The position numbers and the translations under genes were made by a program. The notes beneath the pieces are model-generated. The model had not been told where the DNA came from and did not search any database. It was given only the letters and a program-made list of their open reading frames with translations. Positions 30,203 through 37,708 of a DNA stretch of 64,000 nt are shown piece after piece. Positions within the stretch are counted from its first letter, which is position 1, and the number at the start of each line of letters is the position of its first letter. Source of the stretch: Microcaldota archaeon (lineage in GTDB: Archaea; Micrarchaeota; Micrarchaeia; Micrarchaeales; Micrarchaeaceae); the NCBI GenBank assembly GCA_021816895.1, contig JAKAWW010000001.1, forward strand, positions 557,067-621,066. Direction: 5' to 3'.

Positions 30203-30295
30203 GTGAACCAAATAGAGGTAAAACTAAAAGTTGAAAATGCTATTAAAAAATTGAAGGAAAGAGAGGTTACGGTAAAACGAACGCTTACGGGATAG
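30203..30295 (+). CDS. possible 30-residue peptide (doubtful)
   Basis: A GTG-started frame two bases after the surface-protein stop encodes MNQIEVKLKVENAIKKLKER and ten further residues, a charged helix. There is no ribosome site beyond what could be shared by re-initiation. It may be a fragment. Confidence 0.2.
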   Translation: MNQIEVKLKVENAIKKLKEREVTVKRTLTG

Positions 30296-30309
30296 CCCTG
30301 AGAGGGACT

Positions 30310-30352
30310 GCCTATAAAATAGTCAATTCACCTACGATATACAACATTATAC
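30310..30352 (+). repeat. flanking direct repeat, right copy
   Basis: GCCTATAAAATAG, 15 bases, TATACAACATTATAC: the second copy of the element at 26976-27018. The conserved ends and equal spacing with a diverged middle look like a pair of protein-binding or recombination half-sites. A weaker version with GCCTAT...GATAGC at equal spacing occurs at 31999-32041. Confidence 0.7.
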
Positions 30353-30368
30353 ATCCCGTTTGATGATA

Positions 30369-31367
30369 CTATTTCTTCTTTGCAAACTTTTTCAACCTAC
30401 CCAGGACGCCTTCTGGCTTTTCTATTAGCTTATCTGAAGACTGTTTATCTGATATCACTTTTGCTTCTGCCAAATAAATATTCCTAAGATAATCTTTTCT
30501 CAAGTCACTGACTTCAAATATTTTAAAACCTAATTTTTCTAATTTAATTATTAGTCTCTTTAATGCTTCTTTTTCTGTTTCGCCGTCAATTATATCCTCT
30601 GTTGGTAAACTAAATACTGTTTCACCTTTATAATGGACTAGCAGTATTTTACCATCTTGGTACTTAGCTATTAACGTAACTTTAGGTTTTGGTATAAATC
30701 CTTCCGACCTCATAAACTCTATAAATTTTCTGGCTCTTTCTCTTTCCTGCAAAGAATTATTCTCATCATCCATGATTCGTTTTTCATTAGAATAAATATC
30801 ACTCGGAGAAAGTATAAAAGTACCCTTACATAATGTTGGATTAATTTTCCCAAGTTCAATTGCTAATTTTAACTCTCCGCTAATGCTTAATGCATTCTTA
30901 TGCACAACAAGCAATTTCCTGCCATCTAAGCTTTTATCGATAAATTTAATCTCGTAGTTTAGCGGTAAATCTGCCATTTTATCTTTCGGTTGTGGATTTC
31001 CTGCATACAAAATCATGATTGCAATTCTCCATAGAATGGGTATGTTTGACGTAACAGTCATCGGACTCAAAAATTCGCCTTTGGGTACTAAGTCAACAAA
31101 ATAATAGCCGTTCAGAGGCACTGATTTATCTCCGTTAATTGAAGTTGCAGTAAATCTATCGCTATCAACTTTTTCTGTATGAATTTCGAACTCAAATCCT
31201 AATGGGTTTATTTCATCTAGTTGTATTCCGTTAAATGGCTGAGATTTATGGCCTGTTTTGGTCAATCTAATTAGTAAATCTTTCTCTTGACTAACTTTAG
31301 ATTCAGGAACACTTACGCTTATTGCAACTTTGACCCACTTATCATTCGCTATACCCATCTCCGCCAC
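30369..31367 (-). CDS. hypothetical protein with degenerate C-terminal Nudix-like domain
   Basis: The 332-residue protein has a beta-rich N-terminal part (1-210) without a recognised family. Residues about 217-300 read like a Nudix fold (VTLIAKYQDGKILLVHYKGE, then FSLPTEDIIDGETEKEALKR), but the catalytic REuxEE is replaced by RLIIKL, so it probably binds but does not hydrolyse a nucleotide. The start overlaps the end of the PD-(D/E)XK nuclease-like gene by 26 bases, a strong sign of a functional pair. A basic C-terminus (GRLKKFAKKK) could contact nucleic acid. AT-rich, island-type composition. Confidence 0.7.
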   Translation of the reverse strand: MAEMGIANDKWVKVAISVSVPESKVSQEKDLLIRLTKTGHKSQPFNGIQLDEINPLGFEFEIHTEKVDSDRFTATSINGDKSVPLNGYYFVDLVPKGEFLSPMTVTSNIPILWRIAIMILYAGNPQPKDKMADLPLNYEIKFIDKSLDGRKLLVVHKNALSISGELKLAIELGKINPTLCKGTFILSPSDIYSNEKRIMDDENNSLQERERARKFIEFMRSEGFIPKPKVTLIAKYQDGKILLVHYKGETVFSLPTEDIIDGETEKEALKRLIIKLEKLGFKIFEVSDLRKDYLRNIYLAEAKVISDKQSSDKLIEKPEGVLGRLKKFAKKK

Positions 31368-31905
31368 TTCCTAGTTTTATAACTGACACTTTTCCGTTTT
31401 CATCAGTAAAATAGCACGTTATCCCTAACTGATCTTTAACATATTCAACTTCATTTAGCAAATTTTGGTATCTTTTCATAAGTGGCAGGCCAAGAGCTAT
31501 TTTTATATTGGGCTCCTTTGATTTTCGTATTTCTAGCTCGAAAAGAGCTTCTGCAAACCAATGCCTTGCTTGCAATTCTGGCTTGGTAGGCTTCTTCTCA
31601 CCAGCTTTGTGATTTGCAGTTGTTTTTACGTATTTGTCAGAAGGGTAACCTTTGACTTCCATAACCAGCGTCTTGCCGTTTTTACTAGCCCGAATGTCCT
31701 CTCCTTTTTGAGTTTTGTCTTCGTTTGATTTTTGTATGTTCCAACCTTCTTTTTCCAAATACCCTTTTATTTTTCTCAATACATTCGTTTCTTCAAACCA
31801 TTCATTTTCGTATATATAGGGTTTTTCTTCCAATGTATCACCAAGGGCATCAATATTATTAAGAACGTGGCAAATCAAATAGTTTTCTATCTTCGTTAAA
31901 TACAA
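31342..31905 (-). CDS. PD-(D/E)XK nuclease-like protein
   Basis: The 187-residue protein has a restriction-endonuclease-like core: KGEDIRASKNGKTLVMEVKG (67-86) with Asp70 and Glu83-x-Lys85 in the standard D...ExK order, preceded by a helix with the acidic residues EWFEE (35-39) and followed by a helix rich in charged residues (ARHWFAEALFELEIRK). This is the pattern of Mrr-like DNA nucleases. The best start is a TTG at 31905 with only a weak ribosome site. It is the upstream partner of the degenerate-Nudix gene (26-base overlap), with the HEPN-like gene next upstream. A defence role is inferred from context. Confidence 0.75.
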   Translation of the reverse strand: MYLTKIENYLICHVLNNIDALGDTLEEKPYIYENEWFEETNVLRKIKGYLEKEGWNIQKSNEDKTQKGEDIRASKNGKTLVMEVKGYPSDKYVKTTANHKAGEKKPTKPELQARHWFAEALFELEIRKSKEPNIKIALGLPLMKRYQNLLNEVEYVKDQLGITCYFTDENGKVSVIKLGSGGDGYSE

Positions 31906-32081
31906 TTCCTGCTGTAGAGTTTACCATCAAAAGAGTGAGCTCTGCCTTCCATGCGGGTTTTGTTTAATCTCGAAAAACAAGCATTTAAAGAGTCAACAGC
32001 CTATGACTCTTGTGCAAGCCGATAGCTTACAGCATAACGATCTTGATTAGTATTATGTACACTCCTGAAATTCAGGAAAAT

Positions 32082-32732
32082 CTAATGTTTTAAGAGTTTT
32101 TTTACATAAGCTCGCCTTATTTGAGCTAAGAACCTACCAGTTCTTTTTAGAACGTGATAAGCGTCACGTTCGCTAATAAATCCTTTAGGAGGTTTTACTC
32201 TTTTGCGTTGCTCTTCAGATAAACCGGCATATTTTATTATATCTTTCGTATATCGTTCGGCATTGTGAGCAGACAAATTACCGTATCTATCTCTAATACG
32301 ATAAAGCTCGTGTATTCTTTTCAAGTTAAATCCTAATGCTTTTGCTTCGGATTCTAAATCTTTCCATTTTATCTGCTCTTTACGACAATTAATATGGCTA
32401 CTAATACTTCCACCAATGCGCTTATCAAAACCTTCTATCTTGTCAATTACAGTGTATTTGGAGACGTATAAAGCTGCATCTATTGTTGCTCTTACCATAA
32501 CCATAGAAGCAAAATACAGGCCGTATCTAAAGGCTTCTACGGCTTCTTCATAGCTCTTATTTGCAAAAGCAAATACGTGCGCTTCTAAGGAATAAGGTAG
32601 TACACCGACTCTATTGAGACCTCTTAACCCTATGTCTAATAGTTCATCCGCAAGCAGTTGCCTTTGTTTTAAACCTTGCAAGTTAAAGCGTTGTTGCTCA
32701 TGTGGCAAAAGGTTACCATCAGATTCTGGCAT
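32082..32732 (-). CDS. HEPN/DUF4145-like protein
   Basis: The 216-residue all-helical protein contains a helix of the HEPN type (YEEAVEAFRYGLYFASMVMV, then RATIDAAL, 61-88) and the motif RDRYGNLSAH (147-156), in which Arg149 and His156 fit the catalytic R-x(4-6)-H of HEPN ribonucleases; the GNLSAH wording resembles DUF4145. HEPN proteins are metal-independent RNases common in abortive infection and toxin-antitoxin systems. No nucleotidyltransferase (MNT) partner is adjacent; the neighbours downstream are the nuclease-like and Nudix-like genes. AT-rich. Confidence 0.65.
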   Translation of the reverse strand: MPESDGNLLPHEQQRFNLQGLKQRQLLADELLDIGLRGLNRVGVLPYSLEAHVFAFANKSYEEAVEAFRYGLYFASMVMVRATIDAALYVSKYTVIDKIEGFDKRIGGSISSHINCRKEQIKWKDLESEAKALGFNLKRIHELYRIRDRYGNLSAHNAERYTKDIIKYAGLSEEQRKRVKPPKGFISERDAYHVLKRTGRFLAQIRRAYVKKLLKH

Positions 32733-32857: not shown

Positions 32858-33145
32858 TTATAGACTATGACTTCTTCTTCGCTTGACAAAGTAGATGCGT
32901 TCGAATTGGTCTTGAGTCTCTATCATAAAAGCTCTTTTGAACACCCTATCCGAACCTTTGCATTTATGAAATAACTTAAGTAGCCCTTGAGTATGCTTAG
33001 GTATTTTGTACCATGCTATATAATAGCTCCTTACTTCTTGGCCTCTGTATATTAGCTTGTGACCTATCTCTTTGTAGTTAACCCTATCTGCATAGACCAC
33101 TCTTCCACATACCTTGCAACTTACCTTAAGTGTTTTGGGAAGCAT
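32858..33145 (-). CDS. small zinc-ribbon protein
   Basis: This protein of about 95 residues contains VSCKVCGRVVY near the N-terminus and HKC in the middle, a likely split zinc site, and a basic C-terminus (VKRRRSHSL). ATG 33145 is preferred because it lies one base after the upstream stop and follows GAGAGAT; a GTG at 33175 would overlap the upstream gene by 29 bases. It is the last gene of a three-gene minus-strand run (34044 to 32858). Function not known. Confidence 0.6.
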   Translation of the reverse strand: MLPKTLKVSCKVCGRVVYADRVNYKEIGHKLIYRGQEVRSYYIAWYKIPKHTQGLLKLFHKCKGSDRVFKRAFMIETQDQFERIYFVKRRRSHSL

Positions 33146-33146
33146 G

Positions 33147-33461
33147 TTATCTCTCTTGTTTAGTCCTGTTGCCACCTTTCTTAACTACTTTGAAATACTG
33201 CGGTAGGGATTTTGGAGAAGATGCAATATGTGTTTTCCGTATATGATCCCTCATCTTCTCTTCTGAGGCTGATTTGAAACCACATACCTTACGTATATAT
33301 TTAGGATGAGATCTATCCCAAAGCCATGCACCCATACCTGCTATAAGAAATTGTGTAATAAAGCCCAAAAGGCCTATGCCAAATATTCCGTAGCCTATAA
33401 CACCTCCAATAACTAGTAAAACAAGAACAACAAACACACTTAGAATATCCATTTCTATCAT
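33147..33461 (-). CDS. small membrane protein with C2H2-like tail
   Basis: The 104-residue protein has two closely spaced hydrophobic helices (about 5-50), then a cytoplasmic tail with CGFKSASEEKMRDHIRKTH, the wording of an archaeal C2H2 zinc finger that has lost one Cys. Coupled by a one-base gap to the zinc-ribbon gene downstream. Function unknown; the broken finger suggests decay or loss of metal binding. Confidence 0.6.
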   Translation of the reverse strand: MIEMDILSVFVVLVLLVIGGVIGYGIFGIGLLGFITQFLIAGMGAWLWDRSHPKYIRKVCGFKSASEEKMRDHIRKTHIASSPKSLPQYFKVVKKGGNRTKQER

Positions 33462-34044: not shown

Positions 34045-34536
34045 ACTGCTCGATATCTATAAAAATACTCAGTTAATCTTTTATGCTAATAAAGGATTTA
34101 CTTCTTTCTCTTGGGCCTGAGCAGGCCTGCTCTCTAAGAATGCCAGTTAATAAGCGATAAAGTTAATGAACTATTCAAGTTTGTTAACGTATCAGAACTG
34201 AATACATCTCTCTCGTGGAGTATAAGTGCAATCGCTGAACCTCACGACAAAAACCTATTCCACCAATAGTATACAAAGTTATATATGCAATGCATCTTCT
34301 TTTGCACAGAATTGCGTTTAGTTGCATTTTACTTGTACAAAAAGTATCGAAATGTTAAGAGTTCGCTCAATACAGTGCAAATTGGTGCATTTAACAATTA
34401 TGAGATAATTCAACCAAAATATGCTGAGTCGGTACAGTAATATCTGATGTTGCATTGTTGAAAATGCCTATAGTGTTGCATATAGCATATCCATAATATA
34501 AATAAAGTTGCTTCTAAGATAGGTAGGTAGATAATA
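34045..34536. other. 492-base intergenic region with repeated GTTGCAT motifs
   Basis: No gene is apparent. GTTGCAT occurs at 34321, 34449 and 34475 and GGTGCAT at 34384, on one strand, within an AT-rich stretch that lies between divergent gene sets. A TATAATATAAAT-like box at about 34492-34503 probably serves the gene at 34537. The region may hold regulatory sites or an origin-like element; nothing more can be said. Confidence 0.4.
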
Positions 34537-35258: not shown

Positions 35259-35412
35259 TAGTTTCATTTTCAACATTTACCCGATTCTAACACAGCAAGA
35301 CCGCAAGAGGTTAGGTATAAATAAGTCAACTCTGTGGTATATACAGAAATACATAAAAGAAGGAAAGAAAGTTAAAATCTATGGTAAAATAGTAAATAAA
35401 TTGGATGAATAA
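35248..35412 (+). CDS. 54-residue HTH-like peptide, possible C-terminal fragment of a larger protein
   Basis: A small frame from ATG 35248 to TAA 35412 contains RKRLGINKSTLWYIQKYIKE followed by GKKVKIYGKIVNKL, a helix-turn-helix-like module. It overlaps the end of the previous gene and its stop touches the ATG of the following Nudix gene (TAAATG), so translation is likely coupled. The wording vaguely recalls C-terminal tails of some archaeal Cas1 or transposon proteins; this is from memory and weak. A similar module lies before the gene at 36929. Confidence 0.4.
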   Translation: MLSNSFIFNIYPILTQQDRKRLGINKSTLWYIQKYIKEGKKVKIYGKIVNKLDE

Positions 35413-36249
35413 ATGGGGGCATTAAGTTTTTTAGGGTTGAAGTGGAAACCCAAACAAAATATGTTATATAGGGACGCAACTTGGAATTTTAAACATGGTC
35501 CAGTAATGGGAGAGGCTCAAGGACATTATAAAATTATGAACTCAAGCAGAAAGGAATCCAAAGTATATGTAATTATTAATGGTACTAGGCATCCCGGTAC
35601 TTTTAAGGTTGTTAAAGATTCATGCACTATAGGCATTGGAAAATGGTTTACTATAACCAAATTATATAAGACTACAGTTAAAAATGTAAAATTTACTAAA
35701 CGAAATATGGGGCGGAAAGTTAACCATATGTACGGAAAGTCAGTCATACACAGTTATGAATTTACTGCTGAAGTTTTAGATGCAAATAAACTATCTCCTG
35801 AAGTCGTATCACCTCGAATTAATACCAAGAACAATTCTGAACAGATATATAATAAGGTAATAAAAACACAGATTATAAGACGCAGAGGCACAGCAATAGT
35901 AGATACTCCAAAGGGAATACTTATTGCATCTCATCATAAAACTTGGCTTCTGCCAGGTGGAGGTGCAAATAGAGGAGAAAGTAGAGAAAAGGCAGCTATA
36001 CGGGAACTAAGAGAGGAAACTGGATTACGGACAATAAGTTGTCGATACTTATTTGAATATGATGAACCAGATGATGGCAGAAGGATCAGGAATCTGCATA
36101 AAGTATTTTTGATTGAAGCAGAAGGTAAACCCAGGCCCAATCATCACGATGTTCACCATTTAGCGTTCTGGAAACCGGATTGCAATATTAAATTGAGTCC
36201 TACCACTACAAGAATTGTAAATCATTATATAACTGAATTTAAAAAATAA
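35413..36249 (+). CDS. Nudix hydrolase with a novel N-terminal domain
   Basis: Residues about 148-278 are a Nudix domain with a complete box GGANRGESREKAAIRELREE followed by TGL. Residues 1-140 form a beta-rich basic domain not recognised (includes WNFKHGPVMGEAQGHYKI). The fusion suggests a dedicated substrate or recruitment module. It starts directly at the stop of the small HTH-like frame. It is the third intact Nudix protein within 11 kb. The substrate cannot be predicted. Confidence 0.8.
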   Translation: MGALSFLGLKWKPKQNMLYRDATWNFKHGPVMGEAQGHYKIMNSSRKESKVYVIINGTRHPGTFKVVKDSCTIGIGKWFTITKLYKTTVKNVKFTKRNMGRKVNHMYGKSVIHSYEFTAEVLDANKLSPEVVSPRINTKNNSEQIYNKVIKTQIIRRRGTAIVDTPKGILIASHHKTWLLPGGGANRGESREKAAIRELREETGLRTISCRYLFEYDEPDDGRRIRNLHKVFLIEAEGKPRPNHHDVHHLAFWKPDCNIKLSPTTTRIVNHYITEFKK

Positions 36250-36787: not shown

Positions 36788-36928
36788 ACTAGTATCTCCC
36801 ATAATTATGGCGTTAAACGAATTAGATTATCAAAGAGACACTTGTTTAGATTGAAGAAAAGGATAAAAAAAGGAAAGAAGATAGTGTTAAAAAGGAAAAC
36901 AATAAAGAAGTTGATGAAAGAGGATTAA
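36788..36928 (+). pseudogene. fragment of an HTH-like basic module
   Basis: An open stretch ending at a TAA that abuts the ATG at 36929 encodes LSKRHLFRLKKRIKKGKKIV followed by LKRKTIKKLMKED. Spacing and charge pattern resemble the module at 35248-35412. There is no ATG or GTG in a suitable place, so it is probably a remnant, or it starts at TTG 36842. Confidence 0.3.
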
Positions 36929-37576
36929 ATGGTTGAATATTTGACGTTTGTTAACGCTGTAAAAATATATCCACGAAGTATTGACAATGATTCACAGATT
37001 GCATCCAAAATAGATAGCACCTTCGCGTTAAAAGTATACTTAAATTCGTTAAATGCTGATTACACGCTTAAGAGTCAGGCAGAATATTTCAATGATGTGT
37101 CTCAATTCATATATAAGTTCCACATGTACTGGCACGCACCAAAAGTTAGCACAGAACCTAAAGAAGACGATAAAATAGAATACTTAAAATGGCTTTCTGA
37201 ATTGCCATTAATTACAAAGCCATTAGGTTTAAGATTCAATCCGCCATTAGCTGCAAAGGCTTTTAGACTAGTTGTCGAAAATTGGGGCAATATCTTAGCA
37301 CTACTTGGAGCTGGAATTTTGATACTTAGAACTGACAAAAATGGTAAACCGCAAATTGCCCCTCAACTAGAATATTTAAATAGAGTTTCAGATTTCTTAG
37401 CGTTGAGTAAGTGGGCTTTAAACATCATAATCAAAGAATATCGAACAGTGACAGAAGGTACAGAGCTCCACGAAAGAATCATAACATATTGCCTTAAGAA
37501 TAAATTAACTACAAATGATAAAATAGAGCACTCATATAAAAGATTTGAAAAATGGGTAAGTTTTGGATTTTTCTAG
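36929..37576 (+). CDS. hypothetical protein at the tRNA-Pro border of the island
   Basis: The 215-residue protein is helical, with one moderately hydrophobic segment (NWGNILALLGAGILIL, near 117-132) that may be a membrane helix or a buried core helix. No catalytic motif is visible. It ends 60 bases from the 3' end of the convergent tRNA-Pro gene. AT-rich composition puts it inside the island. Confidence 0.6.
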   Translation: MVEYLTFVNAVKIYPRSIDNDSQIASKIDSTFALKVYLNSLNADYTLKSQAEYFNDVSQFIYKFHMYWHAPKVSTEPKEDDKIEYLKWLSELPLITKPLGLRFNPPLAAKAFRLVVENWGNILALLGAGILILRTDKNGKPQIAPQLEYLNRVSDFLALSKWALNIIIKEYRTVTEGTELHERIITYCLKNKLTTNDKIEHSYKRFEKWVSFGFF

Positions 37577-37635
37577 TGTTCAAATCTTAGAAAAGGGGGA
37601 CATTTGAGTAATTTATATATAACCCCAGCAATGAA

Positions 37636-37708
37636 TGGGGAGCAGGAGATTTGAACTCCTATAGCAAGCGCCCAAGGCTTGCAGTCTGCCAGGTTAGCGT
37701 AGCTCCCC
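37636..37708 (-). tRNA. tRNA-Pro (TGG)
   Basis: A 7-bp acceptor stem (GGGGAGC/GCTCCCC), anticodon arm CAAGC-CTTGGGC-GCTTG giving anticodon TGG, and T-arm AGGAG-TTCAAAT-CTCCT are all intact, with discriminator A and no encoded CCA. The D-arm pairs poorly (CGCT against GACT, two of four pairs), which is unusual. Its 3' end faces the AT-rich island, the classical integration site orientation; no second copy of the tRNA 3' end was found at the other side. Confidence 0.85.

Follow-up and report, generated by a model that had tools for sequence, protein, structure and literature searches.

Casposons are the described mobile elements that most resemble the locus analysed here; the structure of their casposase (PMC6977970) and a target motif (PMC6614799) have been reported, and they have been reviewed (PMC9939771). 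In A. boonei, the casposase integrates at the 3' end of a tRNA-Pro, with a duplication of 14-15 bp and a TCAAATC motif upstream (PMC6614799). The closest described family for one of the proteins encoded at the locus is DUF4145 of the HEPN superfamily, in which the R...H motif is mostly conserved and which occurs with restriction-modification (R-M) genes and transmembrane (TM) segments (Anantharaman et al. 2013, PMC3710099). The other comparisons concern the nucleases Hjc and UPF0102 (YraN) and the Nudix domain of CPSF5/NUDT21 (NUDIX_2).

The window, that is, the whole stretch of 64,000 nucleotides that was analysed, comes from a Micrarchaeaceae genome assembled as one contig, 928,770 bases long. 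It shares with casposons a terminal repeat at the 3' end of a tRNA, the 14-bp target layout and casposase sequence, and its tRNA-Pro has the same layout as the A. boonei casposase target. It differs from them in that only 3' stubs of the casposase remain, the polymerase gene is absent, one end is missing, and cargo follows directly after the stubs. With a probability of roughly 0.75, we regard the locus as a mosaic island at the tRNA-Pro 3' end, derived at least in part from a decayed casposon and accumulating defence-type genes, in which accretion brought a HEPN gene next to a nuclease-orphan gene pair without the two forming a single conserved system.

The island (30.2 to 37.6 kb) has a GC content of 34.5%, versus 46.3% in the remaining window. 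The sequence-only reading had described three AT-rich genes on the same strand, for a HEPN protein, a nuclease and a Nudix-like protein (hereafter the orphan); all three minus-strand ORFs are present where it placed them, with a GC content of 34-37% (Table 1). The HEPN and nuclease ORFs are separated by a 176-bp gap. The 26-bp overlap reported between the nuclease and orphan genes holds for a GTG start at 31367 and shrinks to 17 bp if the in-frame ATG at 31358 is used.

Table 1. Features of the tRNA-Pro island, with coordinates in the window and the evidence for each.
Feature	Position	Strand	Evidence
Conserved noncoding element of about 60 bp near the left island edge	30294-30353	+	Six other genomes of the family
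Orphan protein of 332 aa with a degenerate Nudix-like C-terminal part; start GTG 31367 or ATG 31358	30369-31367	-	Weak Nudix matches
Protein of 187 aa with a PD-(D/E)XK nuclease domain; start TTG	31342-31905	-	48% identity to L035, plasmid relatives, alignment, UPF0102/Hjc matches
DUF4145-like protein of 216 aa with a HEPN domain; R...H ribonuclease by prediction	32082-32732	-	Invariant R147/H156; DUF4145 in 4/7 members
Three small genes: Zn-ribbon-like; TM + C2H2-like; Cys-rich, 185 aa	32858-34044	-	First two common to the G012 island
Casposase (Cas1) 3' stub 1	35287-35409	+	tblastn match to casposase residues 361-401 (68% identity, E=1e-13)
Cargo gene for an intact Nudix domain behind an N-terminal domain of unknown function	35413-36249	+	PF00293, E=3.8e-14
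Casposase 3' stub 2, more diverged	36800-36928	+	36811-36914 84.6% nt identity to L082
Cargo gene, 215 aa, unknown function	36929-37576	+	ORF; no PHROG match
Terminal inverted repeat of casposon type, GGGGTTATATATAAAT, oriented into the island	37611-37626	-	Same repeat bounds the L080, L081 and L082 elements
Candidate 14-bp target site duplication CCCCATTCATTGCT	37627-37640	.	One copy in window; A. boonei target layout, TCAAATC upstream
tRNA-Pro(TGG), integration site	37636-37708	-	Same site with repeat in four other genomes

On its right, the island ends at the tRNA-Pro, which was the only Rfam hit above gathering score. A distance of 10 nt separates the repeat GGGGTTATATATAAAT from the 3' end of this tRNA. 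With small changes, the repeat recurs 9-12 nt from a tRNA, at tRNA-Pro in four other genomes and at tRNA-Glu in others. In 442 kb of sequence from the loci compared, 16 copies of the 13-mer GGGGTTATATATA were counted, against 0.02 expected from base composition, and half of them (8/16) are no more than 12 nt away from a called tRNA; some of these loci had been chosen for their casposase, which biases the sample. Within the window, neither a left terminal repeat nor a second copy of the target duplication was found, and a direct repeat of the tRNA-Pro was sought at the left island edge without result. As the terminal repeat is present at one end only, we call the locus a casposon-derived remnant rather than a casposon.

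More complete elements are found in relatives of the window organism, in which Cas1-solo elements with duplications of 14-15 bp occur and casposons with the same repeat are located at tRNA-Glu. In L080, L081 and L082, the repeat is present on both sides of the element, together with 14-15-bp duplications; L082 is a second, decayed element of the window's own genome, located at a tRNA-Glu. In L079, L080 and L081, the Cas1-type gene is intact and matches PF01867 at E about 1e-59. Near cas1, the same three loci exhibit a gene of 880-902 aa that resembles a family B polymerase by motif only, with no Pfam match; among the ORFs of the island, no candidate for a family B DNA polymerase gene was found. 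In L079, moreover, two casposon ends abut in opposite orientation and share a short sequence between them (L079:1346-1432), which suggests tandem casposons. No description of casposons in Micrarchaeota was found in the literature searched, a limited search that is not proof of novelty.

Stub 1 encodes the final 41 residues of the casposase, and its longer homologue in L066 hits the structure of the casposase from M. mazei (PDB 6opm, E=2.5e-9). The reading frame of stub 2 stops at the ATG of the gene at 36929. Each stub is thus directly followed by a cargo gene (35413 and 36929, respectively), and stub-like stretches located right before genes are also observed in L030, L066, L067, L068, L069 and L082. 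In L079-L081, a variable gene lies directly after the intact casposase gene or overlaps it. The genes repeatedly found behind Cas1 3' stubs differ from one another and encode ADP-ribosylglycohydrolase or Nudix fusions, zinc-finger-like proteins and membrane proteins. An inferred mechanism is recombination at the cas1 3' end, which would replace one cargo gene by another. The casposons of this archaeal family may, tentatively, carry an exchangeable cargo slot directly behind the casposase gene, the remnants at tRNA-Pro and tRNA-Glu serving as platforms on which defence-type genes gather, among them perhaps those for the HEPN protein and the nuclease; we place this somewhat below even odds. The N-terminal domain of the first cargo protein (35413-36249) is matched in seven other genomes of the family. 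The domain, which is also present in L051, precedes an intact Nudix domain in some islands, as in the one analysed here, and an ADP-ribosylglycohydrolase in L034:8259-9758 (PF03747, 4.5e-50), and the C-termini of the proteins encoded at L030:13154-14698 and L069:1013-2533 resemble, by eye, that of L034.

Several segments of the island are shared with other islands, at 78-97% nt identity: positions 32876-33434 (78%) and 34073-34191 (87%) with L030, 34502-35367 with L051 and L082, and 35296-35538 with L066. The latter stretch of 243 bp is 97% identical in L066, which belongs to G213, a genome assigned to another genus whose contig ends there; either a recent transfer or a misplaced contig would account for this match. 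In G012, the Zn-ribbon module stands beside genes that resemble, by eye, Vsr, DNA methyltransferase and GHKL-type ATPase genes (L030:14920-19518). The noncoding element near the left edge is found in five genomes at 74-86% identity and in G010 from 30305 on, inside a 174-bp match of 88.5%. Several of the genomes have it near VapBC-, AbiE- or ASCH-like genes or casposon-type cargo genes. It was considered as an IS605/TnpB end and rejected, as no such gene stands beside the other copies and it is unlike TnpB 3' flanks; it was likewise rejected as a casposon end, the casposon loci being without a match.

With regard to the HEPN protein, the identification made from its RDRYGNLSAH stretch (residues 147-156) is supported. 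R147, G151 and H156 are invariant across the seven aligned sequences, and the arginine and histidine are kept in homologues at 43-57% identity as well as in more distant ones. The spacing between them is x8 in the window protein and x7 in distant relatives, the classical motif being R-x4-6-H; an alternative R149, which is not conserved, would give x6. The DUF4145 profile matches the best relative at E=1e-4, whereas the window protein reaches E=0.11 and 13.0 bits, below the Pfam cut-off of 23.1, and searches of Pfam, PADLOC, NCBIfam and the PDB with the single sequence gave no match above threshold. Homologues are present in 7 of the 294 other genomes of the phylum, none of which has the nuclease or the orphan, and no relatives were found in viral contigs. 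In L019, the homologue begins 6 bp after the third gene, likely hsdR, of an apparent type I R-M operon; in L015 and L020, homologues exhibit long additional C-terminal parts that are membrane-spanning in appearance. In G085, a casposon end was found close to the HEPN relative, which is on the outer side of that end. Because of the conserved motif, the DUF4145 matches and a context of R-M genes and TM segments like that described for DUF4145 (PMC3710099), we accept the sequence-based prediction of a HEPN RNase.

The nuclease assignment is also supported: D70 and E83-x-K85 are present, and relatives occur on plasmids of Thermus and actinobacteria as well as in a MAG of the Aenigmatarchaeota. In an alignment of six members, the residues kept are G68, D70, V84-K85-G86, Q112-A113 and W116. 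D70 and K85 are found in all six and E83 in four, both Thermus sequences having a threonine instead. The protein resembles Hjc and UPF0102 in its G-x-D ... E-V-K core, with weak matches to both: the family profile matches Hjc and UPF0102 structures at E=0.03-0.36, and the UPF0102 profile matches one relative at E=3.7e-4, slightly under the cut-off. It differs from both in forming a separate family with a conserved QA..W element, the Thermus members of which have a winged helix-turn-helix (wHTH) and have lost the glutamate. These Thermus relatives are annotated MarR, and their N-terminal part, which weakly matches HTH models, is absent from the window nuclease. The 31342-31905 product is supported as a PD-(D/E)XK nuclease, a predicted DNase.

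Among GTDB r220 contigs, only L035 of the Aenigmatarchaeota MAG matched, and relatives at about 30-36% identity are located on plasmids of Thermus, Nocardioides, Pimelobacter and Arthrobacter. A profile search of the other 300 genomes of the phylum revealed no clear relative, one weak fragment excepted. A weak match to the nuclease in G036 was taken as spurious, since it overlaps a gene that resembles, by eye, a LAGLIDADG endonuclease. In 156 genomes of the L035 phylum, the profile detected the L035 genome itself and one weak fragment only. The nuclease alignment found nothing in IMG/VR, and two IMG/VR matches of 20 residues were set aside. The neighbours of the relatives vary and comprise ApeA, DUF4145, VapBC or XerD, type I-U CRISPR genes and unrelated genes. 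In L035:2862-5091, the nuclease relative is preceded, at a distance of 65 bp, by an ApeA (HEPN) gene of the same orientation, and in L041, a DUF4145 gene lies about 1.6 kb upstream with two genes in between. On the Thermus plasmids (L086, L088 and L089), the relative stands directly upstream of type I-U CRISPR cas7-csb2-cas3.

The orphan had been described as a Nudix-like protein without the catalytic glutamate. The catalytic signature is indeed absent, RLIIKLEKLG replacing the REUxEE of the Nudix box GX5EX7REUXEEXGU, but the Nudix domain itself is suggestive only, with a best E-value of about 0.1. PF00293 does not match the orphan, NUDIX_2 matches it weakly (E=0.14), and an 82-residue piece compared with the PDB finds mainly Nudix chains at a weak E=0.1-0.5. 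NUDIX_2 corresponds to the Nudix domain of CPSF5/NUDT21, which is non-catalytic. The orphan is similar to this domain in the sequence pattern around the degenerate Nudix box, although the E-values are only 0.14-0.47. In profile comparisons with three Nudix proteins of the window, the scores were no better than those of shuffled controls. AlphaFold models from the single sequence were of low confidence (pLDDT 39 for the whole protein and 56 for the C-terminal 128 aa), and with them Foldseek found no meaningful match in the PDB. A Nudix label for the orphan is plausible from its sequence. No relatives of the orphan were found in viral contigs, plasmids, phages or 295 genomes of the phylum, save for its last 38 residues in G010, and a joined nuclease-plus-orphan query of the genome collection gave none either. 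The G010 match (88.5% similarity over 174 bp) covers the orphan tail and includes noncoding sequence; in the last 110 bp, nine codon changes were counted. As four of the nine are silent and part of the match is noncoding, purifying selection on the orphan frame is not evident.

The sequence-only reading had combined the three genes into an abortive-infection or signal-gated system, in which the Nudix-like protein would sense a nucleotide and release the nuclease and the HEPN RNase. The genes are consecutive on one strand, the nuclease and orphan genes overlap, and in both L035 and L041 a HEPN gene closely precedes the nuclease relative, a possible sign of a functional link that recurs. However, these HEPN neighbours belong to different families, other nuclease loci exhibit VapBC, type I-U CRISPR or unrelated genes, the HEPN homologues occur without the other two genes, and the HEPN-nuclease gap interrupts the set, which has been seen once. 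Within the searched genomes, homologues of the three genes are nowhere found together, and no other genome contains even two of them, the very outcome that the sequence-only reading had named as speaking against it; the proposal of a single system is not upheld, and we consider it very improbable. What stands of the proposed defence role is the setting, which is supported indirectly by the mobile island and by the R-M, ApeA, VapBC and CRISPR neighbours of relatives.

A narrower proposal, in which the nuclease and the orphan are a nuclease-regulator pair and the HEPN gene is unrelated, is compatible with the accretion reading, which includes such a pair. The same-strand overlap of 17-26 bp and the conserved residues of the nuclease argue for it; on the other hand, the pair is found in no other genome, and nuclease relatives have an additional N-terminal part or lack an obvious partner, so that we hold it possible, at slightly less than an even chance. 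The island genes might also be mostly non-functional remnants. The reduction of the casposase to stubs, the loss of the left end, the truncation of the orphan to 38 residues in G010, and the TTG start and missing wHTH of the nuclease are all consistent with decay, yet the HEPN and nuclease domains are full-length and have kept their catalytic residues, which makes general decay unlikely.

Under the preferred reading, a mosaic island built by accretion, the HEPN gene would encode a DUF4145-like RNase that acts on its own, probably as an effector of growth arrest or abortive infection. The overlapping nuclease and orphan genes would probably be a co-translated pair, in which the orphan might bind a ligand or control the nuclease. 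No casposase stub is detectable before the HEPN, nuclease or orphan gene, and these belong to no stub cassette. Since the left terminal repeat and the second duplication are missing from the window, the left edge is undefined, and the three genes may lie outside the original casposon; given the lack of both a stub cassette and a left repeat, they may be either casposon cargo that arrived with the element or later additions.

A tempting three-part defence system is thus unsupported and is replaced by a testable casposon setting in small-genome archaea. The nuclease family, with its wHTH in Thermus plasmids, and its orphan partner are uncharacterised. The enzyme that integrates CRISPR spacers is believed to descend from casposons, and the casposase ends located right before defence-type cargo bear on how casposons gain and spread immunity genes.
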